From positions 1 to 36,007 of the forward strand of contig JAPONY010000005.1 of the NCBI GenBank assembly GCA_026713705.1: a DNA stretch of 36,007 nt, in the 5' to 3' direction. The notes below the pieces were generated by a model that was not told where the DNA came from, made no database searches, and saw nothing but the letters and a program-made list of their open reading frames with translations. This DNA is from Gammaproteobacteria bacterium. Lineage in GTDB: Bacteria > Pseudomonadota > Gammaproteobacteria > Poriferisulfidales > Poriferisulfidaceae. Position numbers and translations under genes: made by a program. Position 1 is the first letter of the stretch. Every line of letters begins with the position of its first letter. Of this stretch, positions 12,039 to 27,101 are shown in pieces.

Positions 12039-12073
12039 CACCGCTATTGCGGATTTCCCCGCCTGATTTACGC

Positions 12074-13291
12074 ATGTATCCCCGATTCATTGAAAATCAG
12101 ATCCATGAAGCCTTGGCGTATACCAGGGTCATTATGATTTGCGGGCCCCGGCAGTCTGGAAAGACCACTCTGGCAAGACAGGTTGCTGGAGGAACGATGC
12201 CCTTTATCACTTTGGACGATGAGGCTTCGCTCAAAGCCGCCTTAGCCGACCCGACCGGTCAGTTGCGTGGTTTGGACCGAGCCGCCATTGACGAAGTACA
12301 GCGTGCGCCCAATCTCCTCCTCGCGATTAAGGCTTCTGTAGATCTGAACCCTCGCCCGGGTCGCTTTCTTCTTACAGGGTCTGCCAACTTGATGACTCTC
12401 CCCCGTGTCGCCGATTCGCTCGCCGGACGCATGAAAGTGGTCCGCCTGATGCCTTTGGCCCAAGCGGAACTGCATGGCAAGCAGCCATCCTTCCTGGAAC
12501 AAGTGTTTGCCGGAAAACCTCCACGGTCTGTCCCAGCAACGGTTGGAGATTCCCTCATGGAGAGGGTCCTTGCTGGCGGATACCCTGAGGCTGTCGCATT
12601 GCCGCGGAAACATCGAGAGGATTGGCACCTGGATTACGTGGACGCGCTTATCCAACGTGATATCCATCACATCGCCCAAGTTGAGCAGTTGAACATGATG
12701 CCAAAGCTTCTTCGCGTTCTCGCCGAATACTCCGGTCAACTCGCCAACTACTCCAGGTTAGGCTCTATGCTTGGCATGAATCAAGTCACCACCCAAAAAT
12801 ACGTCGGCATTCTTGAGAACCTGTTTCTTCTGCACGCCTTGAAACCTTGGCATGCAAACACCCTCAAGCGTCTGGTTAAAACACCTAAACTGCACTTCCT
12901 TGATTCTGGATTGCTTGCCTCGTTGAAACGAATTTTCCCGGAACACCTCCGCCGAGACAAATCGCCACTCGGCCCGGTGCTGGAAACTTTCGTTCTTGGC
13001 GAGCTTCTGAAACTTGCAAGCTGGGATGCCGACCGGTACGAATTTTCACATTTCCGCGACAAAGATAAAAACGAGGTGGATATCGTCATGGAAAATAGCC
13101 GCGGACAAGTCGTCGGCATTGAGGTCAAGGCCGCAGCCTCTGCGTCCGGAAAAGATTTCGCAGGCTTGCGCCGCCTTGCCGCCGGCTGCGGTGACCGGTT
13201 TGTTATGGGCTTGGTCTTATACGATCACGAATACACTTTGTCGTTCGGTGACCGGATGTACGTTGCGCCTATCTCTACACTCTGGGCCTAA
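12074..13291 (+). CDS. DUF4143 AAA-type ATPase, second family member
   Basis: A 405-residue ATPase with the same domain order as the protein at 4530-5702 but a clearly different sequence. Walker A is ICGPRQSGKTTLARQ near residue 25 and Walker B AAIDEVQRAPN near residue 75. GSANLMTLPRVADSLAGRM is the matching post-Walker B block. The winged-helix-like region is SRLGSMLGMNQVTTQKYVG near residue 235, and the C-terminal DKNEVDIVMEN...VVGIEVKAA resembles the nuclease-like D-ExK motif. ATG at 12074 is preferred to a TTG at 12047, which would add nine residues. Codon use is less GC-biased than in ilvD upstream. Three phased direct repeats precede it. Confidence 0.87.
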   Translation: MYPRFIENQIHEALAYTRVIMICGPRQSGKTTLARQVAGGTMPFITLDDEASLKAALADPTGQLRGLDRAAIDEVQRAPNLLLAIKASVDLNPRPGRFLLTGSANLMTLPRVADSLAGRMKVVRLMPLAQAELHGKQPSFLEQVFAGKPPRSVPATVGDSLMERVLAGGYPEAVALPRKHREDWHLDYVDALIQRDIHHIAQVEQLNMMPKLLRVLAEYSGQLANYSRLGSMLGMNQVTTQKYVGILENLFLLHALKPWHANTLKRLVKTPKLHFLDSGLLASLKRIFPEHLRRDKSPLGPVLETFVLGELLKLASWDADRYEFSHFRDKDKNEVDIVMENSRGQVVGIEVKAAASASGKDFAGLRRLAAGCGDRFVMGLVLYDHEYTLSFGDRMYVAPISTLWA

Positions 13292-13323: not shown

Positions 13324-13662
13324 TCAATAGCCTCCCTTGCGGCGGCTCTCGGGCAATCCGGCGATGCGCCCTCCCTGCTTGCTCGGGTCACCGGGGAACA
13401 GATCGTAGAGGGTCTTGGCGTTGATTCTCTCATTCCAGAGTTTCCCAAAGTGCTTGACCAGGTTGCGAGTGTTCGGCTGGTTTCCGGCATTCTGGAAAAA
13501 TTCCTCGCGCAGGTGCTTGATGACATCCCAGTGGCGCGACGTCAGTTCCAAGTCTTCGGATTGTGCGATGTGCTCGGCCAGACCCTCGCTCCAGTCGTCC
13601 GCATTGACCAGATAGCCGGTTGGCGTAGTCTCTATCGTCTTTCCGTCGAGTTCGATGCTCAT
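13324..13662 (-). CDS. DsrC/TusE-family protein lacking the C-terminal cysteines
   Basis: A 112-residue DsrC-fold protein. ELDGKTIETTPTGYLVNADDW, SRHWDVIKHLREEF and NTRNLVKHFGKLW align with the DsrC encoded at 18714. True DsrC and TusE end in a flexible arm with one or two redox-active cysteines (here CKYAGLPKPTGCV in DsrC). In this protein the arm reads GGRIAGLPESRRKGGY: both cysteines are missing, and the protein has no cysteine at all. It therefore cannot carry sulfur as a persulfide or trisulfide. Cys-less relatives have been proposed to be regulatory (the RspA group). The ATG has GGAGG upstream. Being close to dsrA, it might act on the same pathway, but this is inference. Confidence 0.85.
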   Translation of the reverse strand: MSIELDGKTIETTPTGYLVNADDWSEGLAEHIAQSEDLELTSRHWDVIKHLREEFFQNAGNQPNTRNLVKHFGKLWNERINAKTLYDLFPGDPSKQGGRIAGLPESRRKGGY

Positions 13663-13778: not shown

Positions 13779-14096
13779 CTATACCGTCGCCATGTCTTTT
13801 GCGCGACGACGCACCTGCATGCGGATAGATTCACCGCGCTCGACCAACTCCTTCGACAGTTCATGCACCTTTTGGGCATTCAGCCAAAACTCTGGAGCCT
13901 GTTCGAAAAATGCAGCCAATGCAATTGCCGTCTCTGCGCTTATGCCCCTGCGCTCATGCACAATTTCATGTAGACGGGTTGCTGGTAACCCTATTGCCTG
14001 AGCAACGCCATGTACGGTCAATCCCATTTCCGCAATCTGCTCAAGCAATAACGCTCCGGGATGCGTAGCGATTCGCTGTGTGGGAATTAAAGTCAT
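13779..14096 (-). CDS. higA: HigA-type antitoxin
   Basis: A 105-residue helix-turn-helix protein. THPGALLLEQIAEMGLTVHG and IGLPATRLHEIVHERRGIS form the XRE-type DNA-binding fold in the HigA/VapI arrangement, with the characteristic SAETAIALAAFFEQAPEFWL after it. The antitoxin binds HigB and represses the promoter. It follows the toxin gene by 17 bases on the minus strand; toxin-first order is normal for higBA. The last 20 residues are rich in Arg. A palindrome upstream of higB at 14437-14461 is the probable operator. Confidence 0.9.
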   Translation of the reverse strand: MTLIPTQRIATHPGALLLEQIAEMGLTVHGVAQAIGLPATRLHEIVHERRGISAETAIALAAFFEQAPEFWLNAQKVHELSKELVERGESIRMQVRRRAKDMATV

Positions 14097-14113
14097 CTTC
14101 TTGTCTTCAGTTT

Positions 14114-14404
14114 TTAATTTTTATTGTAGTGGTTAGTTAACTCCACCTTGTACGCACTTCCATTCCTCCACTGAAAGCATATTCTCCAGCCTCGGGAAAC
14201 CCGAAGACTGTATTGTCCCTTGCGATCTCCACTCAACCGTTCAAGGTGGTTTCCTGGCGGTACCCGTAAGTCACCAATGTCTTTCGCAGCATTAAGACGA
14301 TCCAATTTCACCCGGGCTCGTTGTAAGACACCCGGAGGAAACAAGTTTTTCCTGGTTCCGTGGAAAATATCTTCGGTGCGTTTATCTGCGAAAGAACGGA
14401 TCAT
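14114..14404 (-). CDS. higB: HigB-type mRNA endonuclease toxin
   Basis: A 96-residue RelE-superfamily protein starting MIRSFADKRTEDIFHGTR. KLDRLNAAKDIGDLRVPPGN and the C-terminal YSLRVSRGWRICFQW are the hallmarks of HigB (Killer/RelE-like) toxins, which cut mRNA on the ribosome. The basic residues of the RVSRGWRICF strand are intact. The gene is first in a two-gene operon with higA. AGGA lies 9 bases before the ATG. This is one of the few toxin-antitoxin loci here with no visible damage. Confidence 0.9.
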   Translation of the reverse strand: MIRSFADKRTEDIFHGTRKNLFPPGVLQRARVKLDRLNAAKDIGDLRVPPGNHLERLSGDRKGQYSLRVSRGWRICFQWRNGSAYKVELTNHYNKN

Positions 14405-14461: not shown

Positions 14462-14532
14462 CTTTAATGCAAATTTAAGGAAAGCCGTAATCAAATAGAA
14501 TGCGCCTTTCAACTCACGGACAGGACCGGATT

Positions 14533-14970
14533 ATGACTGAATCTGTATGGGGCATACACATGAAAGAGATGTGCAAGGAGCCTGTAGTCAATGGATTCAT
14601 CGGAATTGGCTGGAAAACAATGCGTAACCTTTCCGACTTGCCAGATGACCGTAAAGAGATCAGGAAACTCATCCAAATAGCATATCCGCGACATTCGTCT
14701 TACACAGCGGGGTCCGATGCCGGAGTTCTCTACCGTTTCCTGTACGGAGTTTCCATCGGCGACATTGTCGTCTATCCCGATACGTCAAAACCAGATCGCC
14801 TGGTGCATATTGGCAAGATTGCTGGTGACTATCAATATTTTCCTGATGGAAACCCTTACCCAAGCCGCCGATCAGTCAACTGGATTGCACATATTCCCCG
14901 CGATTATTTTTCCGAATCATCGCGGTCTTCGATAAGTGCTAGAAAAACTTTTTATAAGATTAAAAAATGA
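14533..14970 (+). CDS. stand-alone Mrr-N/restriction-system-like domain protein
   Basis: A 145-residue protein. SVWGIHMKEM, NGFIGIGWKTMRNLSDLPDD, SIGDIVVYPDTSKPDRLVHIG and SISARKTFYKIKK follow the pattern of the N-terminal domain found in some restriction-system (Mrr-like) proteins, where a nuclease domain comes next. Here the protein stops right after that domain and no nuclease is encoded downstream. It may be a truncated gene or a stand-alone recognition module. ATG at 14533 is chosen because it begins the domain; an in-frame ATG at 14500 would add 11 unrelated residues. AT-rich composition marks it as accessory DNA. I do not assign a function. Confidence 0.6.
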   Translation: MTESVWGIHMKEMCKEPVVNGFIGIGWKTMRNLSDLPDDRKEIRKLIQIAYPRHSSYTAGSDAGVLYRFLYGVSIGDIVVYPDTSKPDRLVHIGKIAGDYQYFPDGNPYPSRRSVNWIAHIPRDYFSESSRSSISARKTFYKIKK

Positions 14971-15013
14971 TTCCGAGTTCCGGGCGGCTCTGGGTTAGGA
15001 AGTAAGTTCGGCT

Positions 15014-15030
15014 CCAATCCAGAAGATTGG
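15014..15030. repeat. inverted repeat in the dsr upstream region
   Basis: CCAATC and GATTGG form perfect 6-base arms around 5 bases, followed by TCTT. It could be a weak terminator of the gene at 14533 or a regulator site for dsr. Neither is certain. Confidence 0.4.
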
Positions 15031-15061
15031 TCTTAACTTGAACTCTTGAACCCAGCCCCTA

Positions 15062-15079
15062 CCCCTTAGGGGATATAAT
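15062..15079 (+). promoter_or_regulatory. probable dsr promoter with overlapping palindrome
   Basis: TATAAT at 15074-15079 is a perfect -10 hexamer about 100 bases before dsrA. Directly before it lies the 11-base palindrome CCCCTTAGGGG (15062-15072), in the spacer position. The best -35-like hexamer, TTGAAC at 15046, is 22 bases away, too far for unassisted sigma-70 use. This looks like a regulated promoter. AGGAGG at 15161-15166 is the ribosome binding site of dsrA. Confidence 0.45.
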
Positions 15080-15176
15080 AGTTGGTTCCCGGCTTACCCC
15101 ATAGTGAAATTTATATCTGCTTCAAAATCATTTATCCTATGCACTGGCCACGTGTTTGACAGGAGGACCGTGAACC

Positions 15177-16439
15177 ATGACAGACGAACAGCATAAAACG
15201 CCCATGCTGGACGAGCTGGAGCAAGGCCCCTGGCCAAGCTTCATTTCCGGCATCAAACGTCTCCGCGACCAACACCCTGACGAACGGGTCAACGGCGTCG
15301 CAAACGACCTTCTCGGTCAATTAGAACATTCCTACGAAACCCGCAAGGGCTACTGGAAAGGAGGCACGGTCAGCGTCTACGGTTACGGCAGCGGCATCAT
15401 CCCGCGATTCTCCGAAGTCGGCACCGCCTTCCCCGCCTCCAAGGAATTCCACACCCTGCGCGTGCAACCGCCCGCAGGCAACTACTACACCACCGACGTT
15501 CTCCGCCAGCTCGGCGACAGCTGGGAACGCTGGGGCTCCGGCCTGGTGACCTTCCACGGTCAGACCGGCAACATCATGTTCATCGGCGCCAGCACGGAAA
15601 ACACCCAGCATTTCTTCGACGAGATCAACGACTACGGGTTCGACCTCGGCGGTGCCGGTCCTTGCGTACGCACCGGCATGTCCTGCGTCGGCGCGGCCCG
15701 CTGCGAACAGTCTAGCACTGACGAGATGCGGGTCCATCGGACCCTGCTCAACAACTTCACCGACGACGTGCATCGCCCGGCGCTGCCGTACAAGTTCAAG
15801 TTCAAGGTGTCCGGCTGCGGCAACGACTGCATGAATTCGATCGAGCGTTCCGACTTCTCCATCATCGGCACCTGGCGTGACGACATGAAGGTGAACCAGG
15901 ACGCCATCGCGGGCTACCTTGAGACCAAGGGTCGCCAGTACCTGATCGACAACGTGATCGCGCGCTGTCCGACGAATGCCCTGTCCCTGTCGGACGACGA
16001 TCAGCTGGAGGTCGACAACCGCAACTGCGTGCGGTGCATGCACTGCCTGAACGTACTGCCCAAGGCCCTGTCGCCGGGAGACGACAAAGGCGTCTCGATC
16101 CTGATCGGTGGCAAGCGCACGTTGAAGATCGGTGACCTGATGGGCACCATGATCGTGCCGTTCATGAAACTCGATACCGAGGAAGACTACGAGCAGCTGG
16201 TCGAACTCGCCGAGGAAACCATCGACTTCTGGGCCGAGAACGGCCTGGAGCACGAGCGTTGCGGCGAGATGATCGAACGCATCGGCCTGGTCAACTTCCT
16301 GGAAGGCATCGGCGTGGAGGTGGATCCCAACATGATCAACGAGCCGCGCACCAGTTCCTACGTCCGCATGGACGACTGGGAGGAAGAGGCCGAGAAGTGG
16401 TTCCAGCGCAAGGCCGAACAATCCCAGGCTGCGGCCTGA
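15177..16439 (+). CDS. dsrA: dissimilatory sulfite reductase (reverse type), alpha subunit
   Basis: DsrA and DsrB form the siroheme-Fe4S4 enzyme that, in sulfur oxidizers, turns DsrC-bound sulfur into sulfite in the cytoplasm. The cofactor cysteines are in CVGAARCEQ (about residues 170 and 176) and SGCGNDCMNS (about 214 and 218). A ferredoxin-type insert NCVRCMHCLNVLPKAL near residue 285, with RCPTNALS just before it, binds the additional cluster. Length is 420 residues, normal for the family. The ATG has a strong AGGAGG. It heads an operon in which all following genes are a few bases apart. The A. vinosum-like gene order and presence of dsrL and dsrEFH argue for the oxidative direction. Confidence 0.97.
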   Translation: MTDEQHKTPMLDELEQGPWPSFISGIKRLRDQHPDERVNGVANDLLGQLEHSYETRKGYWKGGTVSVYGYGSGIIPRFSEVGTAFPASKEFHTLRVQPPAGNYYTTDVLRQLGDSWERWGSGLVTFHGQTGNIMFIGASTENTQHFFDEINDYGFDLGGAGPCVRTGMSCVGAARCEQSSTDEMRVHRTLLNNFTDDVHRPALPYKFKFKVSGCGNDCMNSIERSDFSIIGTWRDDMKVNQDAIAGYLETKGRQYLIDNVIARCPTNALSLSDDDQLEVDNRNCVRCMHCLNVLPKALSPGDDKGVSILIGGKRTLKIGDLMGTMIVPFMKLDTEEDYEQLVELAEETIDFWAENGLEHERCGEMIERIGLVNFLEGIGVEVDPNMINEPRTSSYVRMDDWEEEAEKWFQRKAEQSQAAA

Positions 16440-16457: not shown

Positions 16458-17531
16458 ATGGCCACTGAACATCGCTCGCCGGTCGAATCCGGTTGCCCGG
16501 ACGGCTTCCAGTACCTGCACCCGCTGATGCGCAAGCATTACGGGAACTGGGCCTATCACGAAGACCCCCGCCCCGGCGTGCTGCGCCACGTCGCGCACAA
16601 CGGAGAAGCCATCTGGACCGTTCGCGCCGGCACCCAGCGCATCCTGGACGTGTTCACCCTGCGCAAGCTGTGCGACATCGGGGATGAATTCGGCGATGGC
16701 TACGTGCGTTTCACCATCCGCAGCAACATCGAATACATGGTGTCCGACGAGGACAAGGTCGAACCGCTGATCGACGCACTGGAAGATTCCGGCTTCATCG
16801 TCGGCGGCACCAAGAACTCGGTGGCGATGATCTCGCACACCCAGGGCTGGCTGCACTGCGACATCCCCGGCACCGACGCCTCCGGCGTGGTCAAGGCGAT
16901 GATGGACGAGTTGATCGACGAGTTCCGTGGCTGGAACATGCCCAACCGGGTGCACATGACCACGTCCTGCTGCCAGATCAACTGCGGCGGCCAGGGCGAC
17001 ATCGCGATCAATGTCCAGCACACCAAGCCGCCCAAGATCAACCACGACCTCGTCTCCAACGTCTGCGAGCGCCCGTCGGTGGTGGCCCGCTGCCCGGTCG
17101 CGGCGATTCGCCCGGCCCTGGTCAACAACAAGCCTTCGCTTGAAGTCGACGAGAAGAAGTGCATCTGCTGCGGAGCCTGCTATCCGCCCTGCCCGCCCAT
17201 GCAGATCAACGATCCGGAGCACACCAAGCTGGCCATCTGGGTCGGCGGCAACCACTCCAATGCCCGCGGCAAGCCCACGTTCCAGAAGCTGGTTGCGGCC
17301 GGCATCCCGAACAATCCGCCGCGATGGCCGGAAGCCACCGCCGTGGTCAAGCGCATCCTGCGCGCCTACCGCGACGACGCCCGGGATTGGGAACGCATGA
17401 ACGACTGGATCGAGCGGATCGGTTGGCCTCAGTTCTTCGAACGCGCCGGCCTGCCGTTCACCAAGTTCCATATCAACAACTGGCGCGGCTCCCGGGCCAG
17501 CCTCAATGCCTCGGCGCATATCCGCTTCTGA
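16458..17531 (+). CDS. dsrB: dissimilatory sulfite reductase (reverse type), beta subunit
   Basis: The beta subunit, 357 residues. HMTTSCCQINCGGQGDIAI near residue 175 carries the siroheme/cluster cysteines, and the ferredoxin domain KKCICCGACYPPCPPMQI is near residue 235. GNWAYHEDPRPGVLRHV near the N-terminus is typical of DsrB. It starts 18 bases after dsrA with GGAGG-like bases before the ATG. In the heterotetramer one siroheme per alpha-beta unit is catalytic. No damage is visible. Confidence 0.97.
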   Translation: MATEHRSPVESGCPDGFQYLHPLMRKHYGNWAYHEDPRPGVLRHVAHNGEAIWTVRAGTQRILDVFTLRKLCDIGDEFGDGYVRFTIRSNIEYMVSDEDKVEPLIDALEDSGFIVGGTKNSVAMISHTQGWLHCDIPGTDASGVVKAMMDELIDEFRGWNMPNRVHMTTSCCQINCGGQGDIAINVQHTKPPKINHDLVSNVCERPSVVARCPVAAIRPALVNNKPSLEVDEKKCICCGACYPPCPPMQINDPEHTKLAIWVGGNHSNARGKPTFQKLVAAGIPNNPPRWPEATAVVKRILRAYRDDARDWERMNDWIERIGWPQFFERAGLPFTKFHINNWRGSRASLNASAHIRF

Positions 17532-17556: not shown

Positions 17557-17949
17557 GTGAAATTCGGAATCCTGGTCAACGAGGGTCCTTACCAGCACCA
17601 AGCCTCTGATAGCGCCTATCAATTCACCCGTGCGGCGCTGACTGCCGGGCACGAGGTGTTTCGGATATTCTTCTACCACGACGGGGTCAACAACGGCACC
17701 CGCCTGACCGTGCCGCCGCAGGACGACCGCAACGTCGTGGATCGCTGGTCGGAGTTGGCTCAGGAACACAGTCTGGACCTGGTCCTTTGCGTGGCCGCGG
17801 CACAGCGCCGCGGGCTCCTCGACGCCGATGAGGCCAAACGCCACAAAAAAGACGCCGACAACATTGCCCCGGGGTTCCGCATCTCGGGACTGGGGCAATT
17901 GATCGAAGCCGCCATCCAGTCGGACCGGCTGGTGACTTTCGGAGATTGA
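17557..17949 (+). CDS. dsrE: sulfurtransferase subunit DsrE
   Basis: DsrE is the catalytic part of the DsrE2F2H2 hexamer that passes sulfane sulfur toward DsrC; it is related to TusD. The conserved Cys is in LVLCVAAAQRRG at residue 78, the same number as in A. vinosum DsrE. The start is GTG, and MKFGILVNEGPY begins the fold. The protein has 130 residues. The stop is directly followed by dsrF. dsrE, dsrF and dsrH together are a marker of sulfur-oxidizing rather than sulfate-reducing Dsr systems. Confidence 0.95.
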   Translation: MKFGILVNEGPYQHQASDSAYQFTRAALTAGHEVFRIFFYHDGVNNGTRLTVPPQDDRNVVDRWSELAQEHSLDLVLCVAAAQRRGLLDADEAKRHKKDADNIAPGFRISGLGQLIEAAIQSDRLVTFGD

Positions 17950-17951
17950 GG

Positions 17952-18368
17952 ATGAGCGAAGAAGGCGTCGTCAAGAAACTCATGTACGTCAACCGCAAGG
18001 CGCCGTACGGCACCATCTATGCGCTGGAGTCGCTGGAGGTCGTCCTGATCGGCGCGGCGTTCGACCAGCAGGTCAGCCTGGCTTTCGTCGACGACGGCGT
18101 ATACCAATTGGCCCGGAACCAAAGCACCGACGGCATCGGCATGAAGAACTTCTCCCCCACCTACGCGGCACTCGGCGACTACGACGTTCGCGACATCTAT
18201 GTGGAACGCGAATCGCTGGAAGCACGCGGGCTGACCGTCGAGGACCTGATGCCGCTCACCTACGAGGACGAGGACGACGACTGGGCGGAGAAAGAGTCGC
18301 TCCGGGTCGTCGACAGCAAGGAACTGGCTGCGCTGATGAGCGAACAAGACATCGTGCTGAGCTTCTGA
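17952..18368 (+). CDS. dsrF: sulfurtransferase subunit DsrF
   Basis: A 138-residue DsrE-fold subunit related to TusC. KKLMYVNRKAPYGTIYALES and GAAFDQQVSLAFVDDGVYQL are the family hallmarks. It contains no cysteine, so it is structural rather than sulfur-carrying, as expected for DsrF. The ATG at 17952 lies two bases after the dsrE stop; an in-frame TTG at 17946 is a less likely start. It forms the hexamer with DsrE and DsrH. Confidence 0.95.
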   Translation: MSEEGVVKKLMYVNRKAPYGTIYALESLEVVLIGAAFDQQVSLAFVDDGVYQLARNQSTDGIGMKNFSPTYAALGDYDVRDIYVERESLEARGLTVEDLMPLTYEDEDDDWAEKESLRVVDSKELAALMSEQDIVLSF

Positions 18369-18370
18369 CC

Positions 18371-18679
18371 ATGAGCCTGCTGCACACCATCAACAAGTCT
18401 CCGTTCGAGCGCAATGCCCTGCAGTCCTGCCTGCGGCTCGCGGAAGACGGCCATGCAGTCCTGCTGATCGAGGACGCCGTCGTGGCGGCCCTGGACGGGA
18501 CCGAGCATGCCGAAACCATCAAGAATGCAACGGGACGTCTGTCCGTATACGTGCTGGGTCCCGACCTGGACGCGCGCGGACTCCCGAAAGATCGCATTAT
18601 CGACGGCATTGAAGTCGTCGATTACGACCGATTTGTGGCGCTCACGTGCGAACACGACAGCGTCCAATCATGGTTATAA
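18371..18679 (+). CDS. dsrH: sulfurtransferase subunit DsrH
   Basis: A 102-residue protein related to TusB, third subunit of DsrEFH. MSLLHTINKSPFERNALQSC places the conserved Cys at residue 20, as in characterized DsrH. VLLIEDAVVAAL and VYVLGPDLDARGL are other typical blocks. It starts two bases after dsrF. The role of the DsrH Cys is less critical than that of DsrE Cys78 in studied systems. Confidence 0.94.
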   Translation: MSLLHTINKSPFERNALQSCLRLAEDGHAVLLIEDAVVAALDGTEHAETIKNATGRLSVYVLGPDLDARGLPKDRIIDGIEVVDYDRFVALTCEHDSVQSWL

Positions 18680-18713: not shown

Positions 18714-19046
18714 ATGCCCCTTGAAGTCAACGGAAAAAATTACGAAACTGACGAGGAAGGCTATCTGGCCAACATCCAGGAATGGGAACCTGATCTGGCG
18801 AATGCCATGGCCGAAGCTGACGGCGCCGCTCTGGGCGAGAACCACTGGGAAGTGATCAATTTCCTTCGCGAGTACTACGAGGAATACCAGATCGCCCCGG
18901 CAGTCCGCGTCCTGACCAAGGCAATCGGCAAGAAGCTGGGCAAAGACAAGGGCAACAGCAAGTACCTGTACGAGCTCTTCCCCTACGGCCCGGCCAAACA
19001 AGCCTGCAAATACGCAGGTCTGCCAAAACCGACCGGTTGCGTCTGA
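18714..19046 (+). CDS. dsrC: sulfur carrier protein DsrC
   Basis: DsrC is the sulfur-carrying substrate of DsrAB. At 110 residues it ends in CKYAGLPKPTGCV: the penultimate Cys109 and a second Cys eleven residues earlier, the pair that makes the trisulfide or internal disulfide. YLYELFPYGPAKQA before them is nearly invariant in the family. It receives sulfur from DsrEFH and, when oxidized, is thought to be handled by DsrMK in the membrane. A purine-rich GGGAG lies before the ATG. Compare the cysteine-free paralogue at 13324-13662. Confidence 0.97.
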   Translation: MPLEVNGKNYETDEEGYLANIQEWEPDLANAMAEADGAALGENHWEVINFLREYYEEYQIAPAVRVLTKAIGKKLGKDKGNSKYLYELFPYGPAKQACKYAGLPKPTGCV

Positions 19047-19089: not shown

Positions 19090-19827
19090 ATGGATGCAGC
19101 AAGCCTGGCTCTGACCTTCCTCTACTACGGCGCCGCCTTGGTGCTGGCGCTCGGGCTTGCCTTGCGCATCCGCCGGTACGCCACGGTCCCGGCCCCATTG
19201 AAAATCCCGACCACGCCGGCTCCGACCAATCGCATCGGCGTCGTCCTGCGCATGATTCGGGAACTGACCTTGTTCGAAAGCCTGTTCAAGTCGAACAAAT
19301 GGATCTGGCTGTTCGGCTGGATGTTCCACTTCGGCCTGCTGCTGGTGCTCCTGCGCCATCTGCGCTATTTCACCGATCCCGTCTGGGGCTGGGTGGCGTT
19401 CCTGCAACCGTACGGGAAATATGCCTCCCTGATGATGGTCCTCGGGCTGCTGGGCCTCTGGTTCCGGCGCGTGGCGGTGGACCGGGTGCGCTATATCTCC
19501 GCGCTGTCCGACCACCTGATGCTGGCCCTGCTGATCGCCATCGGCGTGACCGGCATTGCCATGAGCTTTGCCGTCGGCACGGACGTGGTGGCCGTCAAGG
19601 CATTCTTCCTGGGGCTCATGTGGTTCGACTGGCAGCCGCTGCCGTCCGACCCGCTGCTGTATGGACACCTCGTCCTGGTCGCATTGCTGATGCTGATCTT
19701 CCCGTTCAGCAAGCTGTTGCATGCCCCGGGCATGTTCTTCAGCCCCACCCGCAATCAGGCCGACAATCCCAGGGAACGCCGCCATGTTTCCGCCTGGGCA
19801 CTGAAACTTGAGAAAGGCAATGGCTGA
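19090..19827 (+). CDS. dsrM: DsrM, cytochrome b-type membrane subunit of DsrMKJOP
   Basis: A 245-residue NarI-like integral membrane protein with about five hydrophobic segments. The first is near residues 4-25; others include WLFGWMFHFGLLLVLLRHL, LMLALLIAIGVTGIAMSF and GHLVLVALLMLIFPFSKLLH. His residues in FHFG, LLRHL, DHLM and GHL are likely heme b ligands. It links quinone to the cytoplasmic DsrK. The stop overlaps the dsrK start by 8 bases. Confidence 0.94.
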   Translation: MDAASLALTFLYYGAALVLALGLALRIRRYATVPAPLKIPTTPAPTNRIGVVLRMIRELTLFESLFKSNKWIWLFGWMFHFGLLLVLLRHLRYFTDPVWGWVAFLQPYGKYASLMMVLGLLGLWFRRVAVDRVRYISALSDHLMLALLIAIGVTGIAMSFAVGTDVVAVKAFFLGLMWFDWQPLPSDPLLYGHLVLVALLMLIFPFSKLLHAPGMFFSPTRNQADNPRERRHVSAWALKLEKGNG

Positions 19828-21352
19828 GCAACCCGCTTTCGACATCCCGGAACTCAAGCCCTATCCGGTCATCCCGAAATTGGTCGAGGATGCCATGGCG
19901 CACAGCCAGCCGTTCGTCGCCAAGTCCGACTTCCAGGGTCCGCTGGGCTTCCCGGGCGAACTGGTGGACGACTGGCAGGACGTCGCGGTGAAGAAGATGG
20001 GCGAGTTGACCGACCGCTACCGCTCGCTGCAGGTGTTCCTTGATTCCTGCGTCAAATGCGGCGCCTGCACCGACAAGTGCCACTACTATCTCGGCACCAC
20101 CGACCCCAAGAACATGCCGGTGGCCCGCCAGGACCTGTTCCGCAAGGTGTACCGGCGCCACTACACGTTCGCCGGCAAGTACCTCCCGTGGCTGGTCGGC
20201 GCCGAAGACCTGACCGAAGAAGTGCTCGACGACTGGTACAAGTATTTCCACCAGTGCTCGCAGTGCCGCCGCTGCTCGGTGTACTGCCCCTACGGCATCG
20301 ACACCGCGGAAATCTCGATGGCGGCGCGTGAAGTCATGGATTCGATCGGGAAGGGCCAGAAGTACTGCAACGAGATCATCGGCAAGGTCCACACCATCGG
20401 CAACAACCTCGGCCTGCCGGAGCCAGCCCTCGTGGATACGTTGGAAGGCCTGGAAGAAGAGATTGAGGAAGACACCGGCGTCGCGGTCAAGTTCCCGGTG
20501 GACCAGAAAGGGGCCGACATCCTGCTGGTCACCCCTTCCGCTGATTTCTTCGCCGAGCCCCATGTCGATGGCCTGATCGGATACGCCAAGGTCCTGCACG
20601 AGGCAGGACTGTCGTGGACCCTGAGTTCGCACGCCTCCGAGGCGGCGAATTTCGGCATGTTCATCGGCAGCTACGAAAACATGCGCAAGGTCGCGCTGCG
20701 CATCCGGGAAGCGGCGCTGGACCTCGGCGTGAAACGCATCGTATTCGGCGAATGCGGGCACGCCTGGCGGGTCGCCTACAGCTTCCTCAATACGCTGGCC
20801 GGCCCCTTCGACTTCCTGGACCCGAACTACCCGGTTCCCCAGCACATCTGCGAGGTCACCCACGGACTGATCCAGGAAGGGAAGTTGCGCCTGGACAAGT
20901 CGCAGAACGACGACATGGTGATGACCTATCACGACTCCTGCAACGTCGCCCGCGCCTCGCGCATGGGAGACGTCCCGGGTGGACAGTTCACCATCCCGCG
21001 CGACATCATCCGCGCCAGCTGCAACCATTTCTACGACATGCCGGCCGACACCGTGCGCGAAGCGACTTACTGTTGCGGCGGCGGCGGCGGGCTTTTGACC
21101 GACGACCTGATCGAGCTACGCGTCAAGGGCGCCCTGCCTCGCATGGAGGCCCTCAAGCAGGTTGTTGATGACCATGGCGTCACCCATATGGCTGCCATCT
21201 GCGCGATCTGCAAGAGCCAGTTCGCCAAGGTCCTGACCTACTATGGATTCCAGATGGATCAGATCGTCAGCGTTCACCAATTGGTGAGCAATGCCATCGT
21301 CCTGACCGGAAGCGAACAAGAGAAAGAGGCCGAGCTGAGCGAGGCCGCCTGA
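19820..21352 (+). CDS. dsrK: DsrK, HdrD-like iron-sulfur subunit of DsrMKJOP
   Basis: A 510-residue cytoplasmic protein related to the catalytic subunit of heterodisulfide reductase. Two Fe4S4 motifs are visible, CVKCGACTDKCHYYLG near residue 76 and CSQCRRCSVYCPYGID near residue 145. The CCG domain follows, with YHDSCNVARASRMG and YCCGGGGGLL in the C-terminal half, the site of the special cubane cluster that acts on disulfides. The probable substrate is the DsrC disulfide or trisulfide. ATG at 19820 is chosen; an in-frame TTG four codons upstream is unlikely. It overlaps dsrM by 8 bases. Confidence 0.95.
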   Translation: MAEQPAFDIPELKPYPVIPKLVEDAMAHSQPFVAKSDFQGPLGFPGELVDDWQDVAVKKMGELTDRYRSLQVFLDSCVKCGACTDKCHYYLGTTDPKNMPVARQDLFRKVYRRHYTFAGKYLPWLVGAEDLTEEVLDDWYKYFHQCSQCRRCSVYCPYGIDTAEISMAAREVMDSIGKGQKYCNEIIGKVHTIGNNLGLPEPALVDTLEGLEEEIEEDTGVAVKFPVDQKGADILLVTPSADFFAEPHVDGLIGYAKVLHEAGLSWTLSSHASEAANFGMFIGSYENMRKVALRIREAALDLGVKRIVFGECGHAWRVAYSFLNTLAGPFDFLDPNYPVPQHICEVTHGLIQEGKLRLDKSQNDDMVMTYHDSCNVARASRMGDVPGGQFTIPRDIIRASCNHFYDMPADTVREATYCCGGGGGLLTDDLIELRVKGALPRMEALKQVVDDHGVTHMAAICAICKSQFAKVLTYYGFQMDQIVSVHQLVSNAIVLTGSEQEKEAELSEAA

Positions 21353-21379: not shown

Positions 21380-23338
21380 ATGAGTACCTCAAACGAGTCC
21401 CCATCAGACCAGAAACTCACGTTTCGTCGTTTCGAAGACGACGACTACCAGTGGACCAAGCCAGGAGATTCGATCTTCGAGGCGGATCATTCCCACAAGT
21501 GTCCGACCTACGTGCACCGCACCCCGCCGTGCCAGGGCAGCTGCCCGTCCGGCGAGGATATCCGCGGCTGGCTCGACATCGTGCGCGGCATCGAAACCCC
21601 GCCGGAAGGCATGAGCATGCAGGAATACGCCTTCCGCCGCTCGACCGACGCCAACCCGTTCCCGTCCATGATGGGCCGGGTCTGCCCGGCCCCGTGCCAG
21701 GACGGCTGCAACCGGAATCATGTCGAGGACTTCGTCGGCATCAATTCGGTCGAACAGTACATCGGCGACGAAGCCTACAACGAGGGCTTCAAGTTCGAGT
21801 CCCCCGAGAAGACCAGCGGCAAGCGGGTCGCCGTCATCGGCGGCGGGCCGGCCGGCCTGGCGGGCGCCTACCAGTTGCGCCGCCGCGGCCATGCCTGCAC
21901 CATCTTCGAAGGCCAGGAGGAACTCGGCGGCATGATGCGCTACGGCATCCCCGGCTACCGCACGCCCCGCTCCTACCTGGACCGCGAAATCGAGCGTATC
22001 CTGGAAATGGGCGACATCGAGGTGCGCAACAACACCAAGGTCGGAACCGATGTCACCATCGAGGAAATCGAGAAGGAATTCGACGCCATCCTCTGGGCGA
22101 TTGGCTGCCAGACCGGGCGCAAGCTTCCTGTCCCCAACAGTGATGCCCCGAACTGCATCTCCGGCGTGGCTTTCCTCGAAGCGTTCAACAAGGGTCACCT
22201 GCAGGTGACCGCCGACCGCGTCATCTGCGTCGGTGGCGGCGACACCTCTATCGACGTGGTCTCCGTCGCCAGGCGTCTCGGCAAGATCCCGAGCATGGAA
22301 GAGAAACTGCGTCCCGAGCATGTCGTCGGCGGCTACGTGGCACACGATGCCGCAATGGCCGCAGCCCGTGAAGGGGCGAACGTGACGCTGACCTCCCTGT
22401 TCCCCAAGGAGGAAATGACCGCGGCCGAGCACGAAGTGCACGATGCCATGCGTGAAGGTGTCGATATTCGCGATGGTGTCATGCCGGTCGAGGTGCTGCT
22501 GGACGATACCGGCCGGGCCCGCGCCCTGAAAATGGCGGAATGCACCATAGAAGAAGGCCGTCCGAGCCCCGTGGAAGACACGGAATTCGAAATCGAGGCG
22601 GACCTGATCGTGTCCGCCATCGGCCAGGGCGGCGACCTCAGCGGCGGCCTGGCGGAACTCGACAACGGCCGCGGCCTGATCGATGCCAGCAAGTTCTTCG
22701 AGGTCGACGGACGACCCGGGCACTTCGTGGCCGGCGACATCATCCGCCCGCATCTGCTGACCACCGCCATCGGGCAGGCGTCCATCGCCGCCGAGGGCAT
22801 CGACCAGTACCTGAAAGACGCCGAACTCCGCAAGCGCCCGAAAGTGGATGTCCATCACTTCGACCTGCTGGCGAAGCTGAGCGAGGCCGGGCTGGATCCC
22901 AAGCCTTACGAGATCGGCGAGACCCGGGGCACCGACGGCAGCGATTTCTCGGTACACAACTACGAGGATCGCTCCAGCCAGGAAATCATCACCCACGAAA
23001 AACTGTTCCTTGCCCACTTCCCCTTTCAGTCCCGTGTCCTGCGTGGCGAGTCCGGACCCGACAGCGAGGCGGTGCTGGGCCACTTCGAGGAACGCGTGGT
23101 GGGCCTGAGTGAAGAGGAGGCGGTTTCCGAGGCCGGGCGCTGCATGAGCTGCGGCATGTGCTTCGAATGCGACAACTGCGTCGTGTTCTGTCCGCAGGAC
23201 GCCGTGTTCCGGGTCAAGAAAGACGAGCATACGACCGGACGCTACGTCGACACCGACTACGACCGGTGCATCGGCTGCCATATCTGCGCCGACGTCTGCC
23301 CGACCGGCTACATTGACATGGCTCTGGGAGAGCATTGA
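21380..23338 (+). CDS. dsrL: DsrL, NAD(P)H:acceptor oxidoreductase partner of DsrAB
   Basis: A 652-residue iron-sulfur flavoprotein related to the small subunit of glutamate synthase. The N-terminal Fe-S region has CPTYVHRTPPCQGSCPSGED and RVCPAPCQDGCNRNH. The FAD fold starts GKRVAVIGGGPAGLAGAYQL near residue 150, and the pyridine-nucleotide fold CVGGGDTSIDVVSVARRLG near residue 285. The C-terminus carries two ferredoxin clusters, CMSCGMCFECDNCVVFCP and CIGCHICADVCPTGYID. DsrL transfers electrons from DsrAB to NAD(P) during sulfur oxidation and is required for it in A. vinosum. AGGAGAGGAG precedes the ATG. Confidence 0.96.
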   Translation: MSTSNESPSDQKLTFRRFEDDDYQWTKPGDSIFEADHSHKCPTYVHRTPPCQGSCPSGEDIRGWLDIVRGIETPPEGMSMQEYAFRRSTDANPFPSMMGRVCPAPCQDGCNRNHVEDFVGINSVEQYIGDEAYNEGFKFESPEKTSGKRVAVIGGGPAGLAGAYQLRRRGHACTIFEGQEELGGMMRYGIPGYRTPRSYLDREIERILEMGDIEVRNNTKVGTDVTIEEIEKEFDAILWAIGCQTGRKLPVPNSDAPNCISGVAFLEAFNKGHLQVTADRVICVGGGDTSIDVVSVARRLGKIPSMEEKLRPEHVVGGYVAHDAAMAAAREGANVTLTSLFPKEEMTAAEHEVHDAMREGVDIRDGVMPVEVLLDDTGRARALKMAECTIEEGRPSPVEDTEFEIEADLIVSAIGQGGDLSGGLAELDNGRGLIDASKFFEVDGRPGHFVAGDIIRPHLLTTAIGQASIAAEGIDQYLKDAELRKRPKVDVHHFDLLAKLSEAGLDPKPYEIGETRGTDGSDFSVHNYEDRSSQEIITHEKLFLAHFPFQSRVLRGESGPDSEAVLGHFEERVVGLSEEEAVSEAGRCMSCGMCFECDNCVVFCPQDAVFRVKKDEHTTGRYVDTDYDRCIGCHICADVCPTGYIDMALGEH

Positions 23339-23359
23339 TTTCGGGGTGATCTGCGCGCT

Positions 23360-23788
23360 ATGCGGGCAACTTTTCTCATGCTGTCAGTCGTCACGCTGAC
23401 AGCGCTCTCGAATGCCTCTGCCGAGGGGTTGGGGCCGTTTATTCCCGAAGCCAAGGGCGAGCAATGCGTGGAGCCGACCCAGGTGATGCGCGAGCGGCAC
23501 TGGGAATTCATCCTGCACCAGCGCGACGAGACCGTGCACAAGGGCATCCGCACCACCCGCCATTCCCTGAAGAACTGCCTGGAGTGCCACGTGCAGCCGG
23601 ACGAGGAAGGGCGATTCCCGCGGAGTTCCGAGCCGACCCATTTCTGCACCAACTGCCACGTCTTCGCCGGCATCCGCATCGACTGCTTCGAATGCCACGC
23701 CGACCGCCCGCATGAGGCCTACGGCGCAATCCCCCGCCACTCCCGGCTGAGCCTGAACGACATGTTCCGCAAGAGGCCTGTCCGATGA
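23360..23788 (+). CDS. dsrJ: DsrJ, periplasmic triheme cytochrome c
   Basis: A 142-residue exported cytochrome. MRATFLMLSVVTLTALSNASA is an N-terminal signal peptide or membrane anchor. Three CxxCH heme sites are present: CLECH, CTNCH and CFECH. A fourth Cys in EQCVEP near residue 35 could be the unusual Cys heme ligand reported for DsrJ. It is the periplasmic redox subunit of DsrMKJOP. The stop overlaps the dsrO start by 4 bases. Confidence 0.94.
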   Translation: MRATFLMLSVVTLTALSNASAEGLGPFIPEAKGEQCVEPTQVMRERHWEFILHQRDETVHKGIRTTRHSLKNCLECHVQPDEEGRFPRSSEPTHFCTNCHVFAGIRIDCFECHADRPHEAYGAIPRHSRLSLNDMFRKRPVR

Positions 23789-24507
23789 GCCTGGACCTCA
23801 CCCGGCGCGAATTCCTGCAAGGTGCCGGTGCGGCCGGTGCCCTGACCCTTGCACCCGGAGTGTTCCTGTATGCCAAGGACCCGGAAGCCCCGGTGACCGA
23901 CGCCGTGCGCTGGGGGCTGCTGGTGGACACCCAGGTGTGCCAGGAAGACTGCAATGCCTGCGTGGACGCCTGCAATGAAGAGCACAACCTGCAGGACCTC
24001 GGCCGTCCCGAAACCGATGCACAGTGGATCCGGAAATTGAACGTGCGCGACCCGCTTGGCGGGAGGACCATCTCGCTGCCGATGATGTGCCAGCACTGCG
24101 AGAATCCCCCTTGCGTGGACGTCTGCCCGACGGGTGCCTCGTTCCGCCGCGAAGACGGCATCGTGCTCGTCGACAAACATACCTGCATCGGCTGTCGCTA
24201 CTGCATGATGGCCTGCCCCTACAAGGCGCGTTCGTTCATCCATGAGAACCTGACCGAGCAGTTGCCCGACGCGCCGCGCGGCAAAGGCTGCGTCGAGAGC
24301 TGCACCATGTGCGTACACAAGGTCGATGCCGGGGAAAACACGACCGCCTGTGCGGAAGCCTGTCACAAGGACGGGCACCAGGCCATTTTGTTCGGAGACC
24401 TGAACGATCCGGACAGCGAGATCTCCAAGCGGATCCGGGAGTTCGGCGCCACCCAGATCCGGGCCGACCTCGGGCTCAACACCGGCGTACGCTACCAGAA
24501 CCTATGA
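23785..24507 (+). CDS. dsrO: DsrO, periplasmic ferredoxin-like subunit
   Basis: A 240-residue protein with a twin-arginine signal, LTRREFLQGAGAAGALTL, so it is exported folded. It is related to the beta subunits of molybdopterin oxidoreductases and has four groups of cysteines: CQEDCNACVDACNEEH, CQHCENPPCVDVCPTGA, CIGCRYCMMACPY and CTMCVHKVD with CAEACH. These bind several Fe4S4 clusters. It passes electrons between DsrJ and the membrane subunit DsrP. Both ends overlap neighbours by 4 bases. Confidence 0.95.
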   Translation: MSLDLTRREFLQGAGAAGALTLAPGVFLYAKDPEAPVTDAVRWGLLVDTQVCQEDCNACVDACNEEHNLQDLGRPETDAQWIRKLNVRDPLGGRTISLPMMCQHCENPPCVDVCPTGASFRREDGIVLVDKHTCIGCRYCMMACPYKARSFIHENLTEQLPDAPRGKGCVESCTMCVHKVDAGENTTACAEACHKDGHQAILFGDLNDPDSEISKRIREFGATQIRADLGLNTGVRYQNL

Positions 24508-25703
24508 GCATCGCCTCGACCCGTTACGCCACGCTGGACGCCGGCCGCAACTACTGGGGCCTGCTCGCCGTCCTGGCGGGCGTGGTACTGGCCGGATTCG
24601 CCGGATTCCTCCACCTGGAGCACGAGGGCCATTGGATCACCGGCATGAACAACCAGGTCGTGTGGGGCATCCCGCATGTCTTCGCCGTGTTCCTGATCGT
24701 CGCGGCTTCCGGCGCGCTGAATGTCGCCTCCATCGCTTCCGTGTTCGGCCAAGCTGCCTACAAGCCGCTGGCCCGCCTGTCCGGGCTTCTGGCCGCCGCC
24801 TTACTGTCCGGCGGTTTGGCCATCCTGGTACTGGACCTCGGTCGGCCGGATCGGCTGATCGTGGCCATGACCTACTACAACTTCAAGTCCATCTTCGCCT
24901 GGAATATCTTCCTTTACACCGGGCTGCTGGCGGTGATCGCCGTCTACCTGTTCGTGCTGTTCCAGCCCGCACTGGCCCGCTGGACCCGGGCCGCCGGCAT
25001 CATGGCCCTGCTGTGGCGCCTCATCCTGACCACCGGCACCGGCGCCATCTTCGGTTTTCTGGTCGCCCGCCAAGGATACGACGCGGCCATCATGGCGCCC
25101 CTGTTCATCATCATGTCGTTCTCGTTCGGCACGGCCGTATTCCTGCTGGTCCTGGCCGCGGCCTGCCGGGGCTCTGGGAGGGTGCTTGGCGATGCCCTGC
25201 TGTTCCGCCTGAAGAACCTGCTCGCCGTGTTTGTCTCCGCGGTGCTTTATTTCGTCCTGGCCTACCACCTCACCAACCTCTACGCCACCGAGCACCACGG
25301 CTTCGAGGCATTCATCCTGAATTTCGAAAGCCTGTATTCGAAACTCTTCTGGCTCGGGCAGGTTGGCCTCGGCTCTCTCTTACCGCTCGCCTTGTTTTAC
25401 TCGCCGAAGACCCGGAACTGCCGCGTCAGCGCGCTTGTCGGCGCGAGTCTGGTCATCATCGGCGGCCTGATCCAGATGTACGTCATCATCATCGGCGGGC
25501 AAGCGTATCCGCTGATCCTGTTCCCCGGCATGGAAGAAAGCAGTTCGTTCTTTGACGGTGTGGTTGCGTCCTACGTGCCAAGCATCTGGGAGTTCCTGCT
25601 GGGCATCACCGGGGTCGGCATCGGCCTGATCCTCACCGTCGCGGGCCTGGGCGCACTGGACATCCTCCCCGAGGACCTGTCGGATCCCGAGCCGGCCAGC
25701 TAA
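24504..25703 (+). CDS. dsrP: DsrP, NrfD-type integral membrane subunit
   Basis: A 399-residue protein of the NrfD/PsrC family with about ten hydrophobic segments, such as GLLAVLAGVVLAGFAGFLHL, AALLSGGLAILVLDLGRPD and GASLVIIGGLIQMYVIIIGG. It binds or reacts with quinone and docks with DsrO. The ATG at 24504 overlaps the dsrO stop (ATGA); a longer reading that begins at 24309 lies inside dsrO and is not real. The last 25 residues are a short cytoplasmic tail rich in acidic residues. Confidence 0.94.
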   Translation: MSIASTRYATLDAGRNYWGLLAVLAGVVLAGFAGFLHLEHEGHWITGMNNQVVWGIPHVFAVFLIVAASGALNVASIASVFGQAAYKPLARLSGLLAAALLSGGLAILVLDLGRPDRLIVAMTYYNFKSIFAWNIFLYTGLLAVIAVYLFVLFQPALARWTRAAGIMALLWRLILTTGTGAIFGFLVARQGYDAAIMAPLFIIMSFSFGTAVFLLVLAAACRGSGRVLGDALLFRLKNLLAVFVSAVLYFVLAYHLTNLYATEHHGFEAFILNFESLYSKLFWLGQVGLGSLLPLALFYSPKTRNCRVSALVGASLVIIGGLIQMYVIIIGGQAYPLILFPGMEESSSFFDGVVASYVPSIWEFLLGITGVGIGLILTVAGLGALDILPEDLSDPEPAS

Positions 25704-25712
25704 GTCTTAATC

Positions 25713-27101
25713 ATGGCCGGCCAACACCGCCGGATCTACCTGTCGGCAAGCCGGAAGTCCAGCGGCAAGACCTGCCTCTCCATCGGCCTCCTGCATACGC
25801 TCGCCCGGCAAGGCGTAAAGACCCAGCCTTTCAAGAAAGGGCCCGACTACATTGATCCGATGTGGTTGTCCCGCGCCGCCGGGCAACCCTGCTACAACCT
25901 GGACTACAACACGCAAACCAGCCAGGAGATCCTTGAGACCGCCGCCCGGGGTTCCGCGGCCGATTACGCCCTGATCGAGGGCAACCTCGGATTGTTTGAC
26001 GGCATGGCAACCGACGGCTCCGACAGCAACGCCGCCTTGGCCAAGCTTCTGCAGGCGCCCATCGCGCTCATACTGGATTCCGAGGGAATGGCTCGCGGCA
26101 TCGCGCCGCTGGTTCTCGGCTATCAGCAGTTCGATTCCAAGCTGCAATGGGCTGGCGTGATTCTCAATCGGACTGCCGGCAGTCGACACGAATCCAAGCT
26201 CATCCATGCCGTGGAACAACACACCGACCTTCCGGTGCTGGGTGCCGTCGGGAGATCCCCGGACATGCAACTCGCGGAACGCCACCTCGGGCTCATCACC
26301 CATGCCGAGCAGGCCGACGCGGACCAGCGCATCGAAAAAATGGGCCGGGTCGTGGCCGAGAGTGTCGATGTCGAAAGACTGCTCAGTCTCGCGGGTAGTC
26401 CGGTTGCAGATCTGAAAACAGAAGCTCCAGCATCCGCGCCTGCACCGGACCTCCGCATCGGCTATGCCCGGGACGCCGCATTCGGGTTTTACTATGCGGA
26501 TGATCTGGAACAGTTCGCCCGGTTGGGTGCGGAGTTAGTACCGTTTGATGCGCTGCACGACACCGATCTCCCCGAGATGGACGGCTTGTGGCTCGGCGGC
26601 GGGTTTCCGGAAACCCAGGCCGAAGCTCTGTCAACCAATGCTTCGATGAAGGAGGCCTTGCACGACCGCATTGCGGCCGGGCTGCCGACCTATGCCGAGT
26701 GCGGCGGTCTCATGTACCTGTCCCGGCAGATCTCCTGGGAAGATCAGACTCACGAGATGGTGGGCGTCGTCCCCGGCGATTGCGTGATGGACTCGCGCCC
26801 GCAAGGGCGAGGGTTGGTGGAACTGGAGGCCACGGGCGACTTCCCATGGCCCGAGGTGCCCTCAGGGTTGCAAGTGCCTGCACATGAATTTCACTACTCG
26901 CGCCTGGAAAACCTGAGTGGCGATCTTCGCTGGGGCTGGCAGGTTCGGCGTGGAACTGGCACGGCCGAGGAAATGGACGGATTGATTTTAGGCAATCTGT
27001 TTGCCAACTACTGCCACTTGCGGCACACAAAGCGTTTTGAATGGATTCGGCATTTTTTGGGATTCGTGAGAGAGCGTGCCAGCAAGCAAACACAAAATTG
27101 A
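25713..27101 (+). CDS. dsrN: DsrN, cobyrinic acid a,c-diamide synthase family (siroheme amidation)
   Basis: A 462-residue CbiA/CobB-type amidotransferase. The ATP-binding loop is LSASRKSSGKTCLSIGLL at the N-terminus, FKKGPDYIDPMWL is the substrate segment, and YAECGGLMYLSRQ near residue 330 contains the glutaminase Cys. In dsr clusters this enzyme is believed to amidate siroheme to the siro-amide of DsrAB. It starts 9 bases after dsrP and is the last recognizable dsr gene; dsrR and dsrS, which follow it in A. vinosum, are not here. Confidence 0.93.
   Translation: MAGQHRRIYLSASRKSSGKTCLSIGLLHTLARQGVKTQPFKKGPDYIDPMWLSRAAGQPCYNLDYNTQTSQEILETAARGSAADYALIEGNLGLFDGMATDGSDSNAALAKLLQAPIALILDSEGMARGIAPLVLGYQQFDSKLQWAGVILNRTAGSRHESKLIHAVEQHTDLPVLGAVGRSPDMQLAERHLGLITHAEQADADQRIEKMGRVVAESVDVERLLSLAGSPVADLKTEAPASAPAPDLRIGYARDAAFGFYYADDLEQFARLGAELVPFDALHDTDLPEMDGLWLGGGFPETQAEALSTNASMKEALHDRIAAGLPTYAECGGLMYLSRQISWEDQTHEMVGVVPGDCVMDSRPQGRGLVELEATGDFPWPEVPSGLQVPAHEFHYSRLENLSGDLRWGWQVRRGTGTAEEMDGLILGNLFANYCHLRHTKRFEWIRHFLGFVRERASKQTQN

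Follow-up and report, generated by a model that had tools for sequence, protein, structure and literature searches.

A cysteine-free DsrC-family protein with a conserved C-terminal arm accompanies the dsr genes of sulfur-oxidising bacteria

The window analysed here is a stretch of 36,007 nucleotides from a gammaproteobacterial genome (assembly GCA_026713705.1, contig JAPONY010000005.1, positions 1 to 36,007 of the forward strand). It carries a dsr operon and, on the opposite strand, a second gene of the DsrC family whose product lacks cysteine. The features of the locus are listed below.

13324–13662, minus strand: cysteine-free DsrC-family protein, 112 aa, arm ...FPGDPSKQGGRIAGLPESRRKGGY (open reading frame and PF04358/TIGR03342 profile matches)
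13779–14404, minus strand: HigA/HigB-like toxin-antitoxin pair, located between the cysteine-free dsrC and dsrA
15060–15075, no strand assigned: conserved 16-bp palindrome TACCCCTTAGGGGATA, consensus TATCCC-N4-GGGATA, candidate dsr operator in the dsrA upstream region
15177–16439, plus strand: dsrA (TIGR02064, 615 bits)
16458–17531, plus strand: dsrB (TIGR02066, 533 bits)
17557–18679, plus strand: dsrE, dsrF and dsrH (TIGR03012, TIGR03010 and TIGR03011)
18714–19046, plus strand: dsrC, encoding the true two-cysteine DsrC (profile matches and sequence)
19090–21352, plus strand: dsrM and dsrK (DsrM by an NF038037 match below the cut-off, dsrK by sequence and gene order)
21380–27101, plus strand: dsrL, dsrJ, dsrO, dsrP and dsrN (J below the curated cut-off, O and P by sequence and gene order)

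The cysteine-free gene starts with an ATG at 13662, downstream of a GGAGG-type ribosome-binding site, and is read from the minus strand; an earlier note on this DNA had given the exact extent of the reading frame, which stands, but the strand had to be corrected. The gene is divergent from dsrA, with 1514 bp between the two start positions. Both the dsr operon that the note had placed 1.5 kb away (dsrABEFHCMKLJOPN) and the true two-cysteine DsrC said to coexist with the cysteine-free protein are present. The 1.5-kb spacer is filled by the HigBA-like pair and by an open reading frame of 156 aa (14500–14970) without a match in Pfam or NCBIfam. In the nearest relative (L032) the spacer measures only 244 bp and does not contain the HigBA-like pair, which is therefore probably a recent insertion; in the window this pair and an AAA_14/DUF4143 gene (12047–13291) flank the cysteine-free dsrC. 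Exactly two PF04358 proteins, the cysteine-free protein and DsrC, were found in the source genome (1.94 Mb, 95.6% complete), and no TusE was found there. Within our collection the closest genome is a candidatus Porisulfidus MAG associated with a sponge; its cysteine-free protein is 99% identical.

Homology of the protein to DsrC is not a chance resemblance, as it matches the PF04358 DsrC profile with 108 bits (3.1e-31) and TIGR03342 (dsrC_tusE_dsvC) with 96.6 bits, above the cut-off of 53.5. There is no cysteine among its 112 residues. The two cysteines of the DsrC arm are both replaced (KQACKYAGLPKPTGCV in DsrC compared with KQGGRIAGLPESRRKGGY in the cysteine-free protein): in the alignment with DsrC from the same operon, the CysB position is occupied by Gly, and the PKPTGCV end is exchanged for PESRRKGGY, which is two residues longer. 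Sequence and alignment bear out what the earlier note had said about the missing redox cysteines and, as far as the DsrC mode of sulfur carriage is concerned, its statement that the protein cannot carry sulfur, since without cysteine the persulfide or disulfide chemistry of DsrC is not available to it. Neither the CX10C pattern with penultimate cysteine that marks a two-cysteine DsrC nor the penultimate cysteine of TusE is present. The score against the TusE equivalog model NF008562 is 82.8 bits, below the cut-off of 191 that the true DsrC (134 bits) also misses. An AlphaFold2 model (pLDDT 89, pTM 0.82, with about 53–75 at the end of the arm) matches A. vinosum DsrC (1yx3) with TM 0.85 and Z 16.7, and 1sau with Z 16.8, in agreement with the earlier view that the DsrC fold is kept.

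Within the genus, dN/dS of the cysteine-free gene is 0.01–0.07, as low as that of dsrC, and points to strong purifying selection. The C-terminal arm (LFPGDPSKQGGRIAGLPESRRKGGY) is more conserved than the body of the protein, the mean entropy being 0.17 bits in the last 22 residues compared to 1.18 in the rest among 79 distinct orthologues, part of which were gathered by patterns that include the arm. For this reason conservation was also checked in 30 proteins obtained by whole-protein match: GY is the end of all 30, it is extended to GGY in 29 of them, and the full RKGGY is present in 28. A single one has a cysteine in the arm, away from the positions of the DsrC cysteines. A tree was also built from 90 members of the family; it rests on few columns and leaves the deep order unsettled. 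In this tree the cysteine-free proteins form a single clade (support 100/96) and do not group with DsrC; E. coli TusE, the TusE-like proteins and several further subgroups resembling DsrC fall outside the clade as well.

The distribution of the gene was surveyed in 369 gammaproteobacterial genomes with a DNA pattern for ESRRKGGY followed by a stop codon, which also admits ETRRKGGY. The pattern was found in 60 genomes, and dsrA is present in 55 of these compared with 62 of the 309 genomes without the pattern (p = 1e-26 by Fisher’s test). All five exceptions are contig ends; two still hold the start of a divergent dsrA, and in the remaining three the contig breaks within the neighbouring TauD-like gene or a short way past it. 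The 62 dsrA genomes that do not show the exact tail include 48 with a match that reaches residue 112, beyond the 105–108 where true DsrC matches stop; 30 of the 48 were inspected as sequences and the other 18 were assigned by alignment range, the weakest at 44–47% identity. In total, the cysteine-free gene accompanies dsrA in about 103 of 117 gammaproteobacterial genomes, while a residue-112 match occurs in none of 59 that lack dsrA, and the co-occurrence with dsr that the earlier note had proposed to check is borne out. The control set also took in one dsrA-positive genome (G123), which acted as a positive control. The gene is not apparent in 14 of the 117 dsrA genomes, which indicates that it is not essential for the reverse Dsr (rDsr) pathway. 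An unlinked cysteine-free gene was found in 25 further genomes, mostly Rhodobacterales, and all 25 have a match to the dsrA model (over the curated cut-off in 20, the others being pieces of dsrA or dsrB, one of them a weak fragment only). In Rhodobacterales the gene is not linked to dsr on its contig, yet dsrAB is present in the genome. The protein tracks dsrAB and not the tRNA thiolation genes.

Where the cysteine-free gene and dsrA are located on one contig, they are divergent in 68 of 73 genomes and 1.5–4.9 kb apart. This includes every one of the 40 pattern-positive cases (1.5–3.5 kb apart) and 28 of the 33 others. The usual order on the strand of the cysteine-free gene is a TauD-like dioxygenase (PF02668), a Cas6/Cmx6-like protein (PF09559) and the cysteine-free dsrC. 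In one representative the Cas6/Cmx6-like protein scores above the NCBIfam Cas6 cut-off, and it resembles a relative of Cas6 that sulfur oxidisers have domesticated. Its gene and that of the TauD-like dioxygenase adjoin dsrA at about 35 loci (L037, L052, L060 and L151 among them).

Copies of the cysteine-free dsrC are also present in two viral contigs, at the following positions.

L204:10001-10309: viral copy on a contig (L204/L165) with T4-type baseplate wedge and tail genes (PHROG 232, 350)
L205:10001-10336: viral copy on a 219-kb viral contig

The first copy has a complete arm (PSKQGGRISGLPESRRKGGY), and its place in the tree is within bacterial sequences of the PS1/Thioglobus type; the second is diverged and ends in GLPYVARKGGY. 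Records of isolate phages and plasmids yielded only TusE-like matches, none of which reaches residue 112.

These observations describe a protein that is under selection, tied to dsr in its distribution and conserved in its arm, and that has no cysteine. In our judgement there is about an even chance that it is a dedicated non-redox accessory of the reverse (sulfur-oxidising) Dsr pathway, a DsrC look-alike that would modulate one of the Dsr proteins. DsrC inserts its arm into DsrAB and also meets DsrEFH and DsrK. The cysteine-less arm would be the conserved functional part of an accessory with the DsrC fold, and we infer that it has a binding partner; the KQ and AGLP motifs common to both arms suggest one of the binding sites of DsrC. 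Docking of the arm in a DsrC-binding site appears most likely because the fold, these motifs and the conserved Arg/Lys are common to DsrC while the cysteines are replaced by the fixed, longer tail ESRRKGGY. DsrAB would be the first candidate for the docking site, followed by DsrK or DsrL, and docking could modulate the access of DsrC or the activity of the enzyme without any sulfur being carried. The proposal of the earlier note, a regulator or decoy of DsrAB, DsrEFH or DsrMK, is a plausible hypothesis. Conservation of the arm could, however, also serve a partner outside the Dsr system.

A less likely alternative is that the protein regulates transcription of the dsr genes through the helix-turn-helix-like part of the DsrC fold. 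A proposal of this kind has been published for RspA: the 2014 BBA review by Venceslau et al. reportedly describes a ‘regulatory sulfur-related protein’ of the DsrC superfamily for which the conserved cysteines are not needed. As a DsrC superfamily protein without these cysteines, the cysteine-free protein fits this idea, and its clade may be the whole or a part of the RspA group. Binding of DNA by A. vinosum DsrC was reportedly observed by Grimm et al. in 2010. Divergence from dsrA would suit such a role, since regulators are commonly encoded in a separate divergent operon. A winged helix is also resembled by the DsrC fold, as the model has weak matches to PerR, Fur and LexA (Z 4–6, below the informative level of the tool). 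In addition, the region 15000–15176, which the earlier note had named as a possible DNA target, does contain a conserved palindrome, the end of which is overlapped in the window by a TATAAT box (15074–15079).

The distribution of this palindrome does not follow the cysteine-free gene. Among the Gammaproteobacteria examined it is found in 10 of 15 dsrA upstream regions from genomes without the gene and in 19 of 24 from genomes with it (about 1.3% would be expected by chance), and it was found in none of 17 dsrA upstream regions of Rhodobacterales, although the gene is present in nearly all of these. Exact copies of the motif are rare: one or two per genome occur in 6 of 15 whole genomes, and in 5 of these 6 a copy is located at dsrA; at the promoters of unlinked cysteine-free genes, 1 of 37 reached the score threshold of 10 (L056). 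The presence of the palindrome goes with the dsr promoter of Gammaproteobacteria and with the Cas6-like gene. Because it occurs without the cysteine-free gene and is absent in Rhodobacterales that have the gene, it is probably not the operator of the cysteine-free protein, which probably does not read it. The protein itself also speaks against the DNA target proposed earlier: its putative recognition helix (65–75) varies at most positions except T65, R66 and K70, of which R66 and K70 are common to DsrC, its body is acidic with a charge of about −7, and its invariant part is the arm. We also considered that the palindrome might act as RNA, in the form of a hairpin that the Cas6-like protein cuts. 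This is disfavoured, as both half-sites show about the same amount of variation (in 50 sites, stem positions 3 and 5 have 18 C-A mismatches compared with 14 U-G), which fits a DNA dyad and not an RNA stem and makes a DNA operator the likelier of the two.

It is improbable, although conceivable, that the cysteine-free protein works with the TauD-like dioxygenase and the RNA-binding Cas6-like protein, for instance to process or modify RNA in connection with sulfur oxidation. The three genes stand in a row on one strand at no fewer than 35 gammaproteobacterial loci, and the Cas6-like protein is present in all 14 dsrA-bearing Gammaproteobacteria among those listed and in none of the 6 without dsrA. 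Nevertheless, it is found in none of 18 Rhodobacterales-type genomes that keep the cysteine-free protein and dsr, and it is present in 10 dsr genomes seemingly without the cysteine-free protein. Moreover, in the genus of the window the TauD-like/Cas6-like pair is relocated to another contig (C19 in the source genome; C19:18678-19274, L289:6628-7305), and the cysteine-free gene is still beside dsrA.

Very unlikely in our opinion is a thiocarboxylate-type sulfur carrier without cysteine, in which the -GGY end would be trimmed to Gly-Gly and activated; the near-invariant -RKGGY end would fit, but neither an adenylating enzyme nor a JAMM protease recurs in the gene neighbourhood, and the fold is that of DsrC and not a beta-grasp. 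Least credible of all is that a TusE or DsrC copy has degenerated here under relaxed selection, as the loss of both cysteines and the lack of a TusE in the genome could indicate, but the low dN/dS, the near-invariant arm, the separate clade and the co-occurrence with dsr contradict it, and the first three rule out a TusE that recently lost its cysteine, the outcome that the earlier note had set against its own reading.

The accessory that we favour can be compared with the known members of the family. With DsrC (A. vinosum 1yx3 and DsrC of the same operon) it shares fold, length, arm motifs and the conserved Arg/Lys; unlike DsrC, it has neither redox cysteine, its longer arm has the ESRRKGGY end, and it belongs to a clade of its own and is encoded divergently outside the operon. 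With TusE (E. coli b0969) it shares the PF04358 fold, whereas TusE keeps the penultimate cysteine and the cysteine-free protein tracks dsrAB rather than tRNA thiolation genes. DsrC homologues without the cysteines are an already known kind, RspA being one example. In the parts of the sources available to us, cysteine-less DsrC homologues outside the dsr operon are described in the Solemya velum symbiont (PMC4287430), and a phage survey reports five phage DsrC without either cysteine motif, leaving their role open (PMC8190135). Those proteins likewise have lost the conserved arm cysteines and come from a sulfur-oxidiser or phage context; the same parts of the two papers describe neither a clade nor synteny, co-occurrence or an arm consensus for these proteins. 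In the open-access literature, with most subscription literature outside its coverage, we found no description of the clade with the fixed ESRRKGGY arm, of the near-universal link between this clade and rDsr, of the divergent cysteine-free dsrC operon with the Cas6-like gene, or of the phage copies presented here. Sulfur oxidisers contain other DsrC-like subgroups without the penultimate cysteine, which end in fixed tails of their own, RAWSTG, KLMLDV/KLWLDL and PMPQPDT (L169, L172-L174, L176-L178, L180-L184, L187, L188, L190), so the DsrC family contains several unstudied non-canonical arms.

Sulfur oxidation by the rDsr pathway drives many marine and symbiotic ecosystems, and the control of electron and sulfur flow through DsrAB is largely unknown. 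A protein that accompanies rDsr so closely, with the DsrC arm under strong selection and all of its chemistry gone, makes this question testable. We can speculate further, and regard it as possible but rather doubtful, that the protein is a dedicated non-redox mimic of DsrC that would place its fixed arm in a Dsr enzyme (e.g., the DsrAB channel) and gate sulfur oxidation, a near-universal and overlooked component of gammaproteobacterial rDsr that phages may have captured to control sulfur oxidation by the host. For annotation, the finding is a warning that proteins of a cysteine-free clade are among the ‘dsrC/tusE’ calls, and ‘dsrC’ genes of phages may be modulators rather than carriers.
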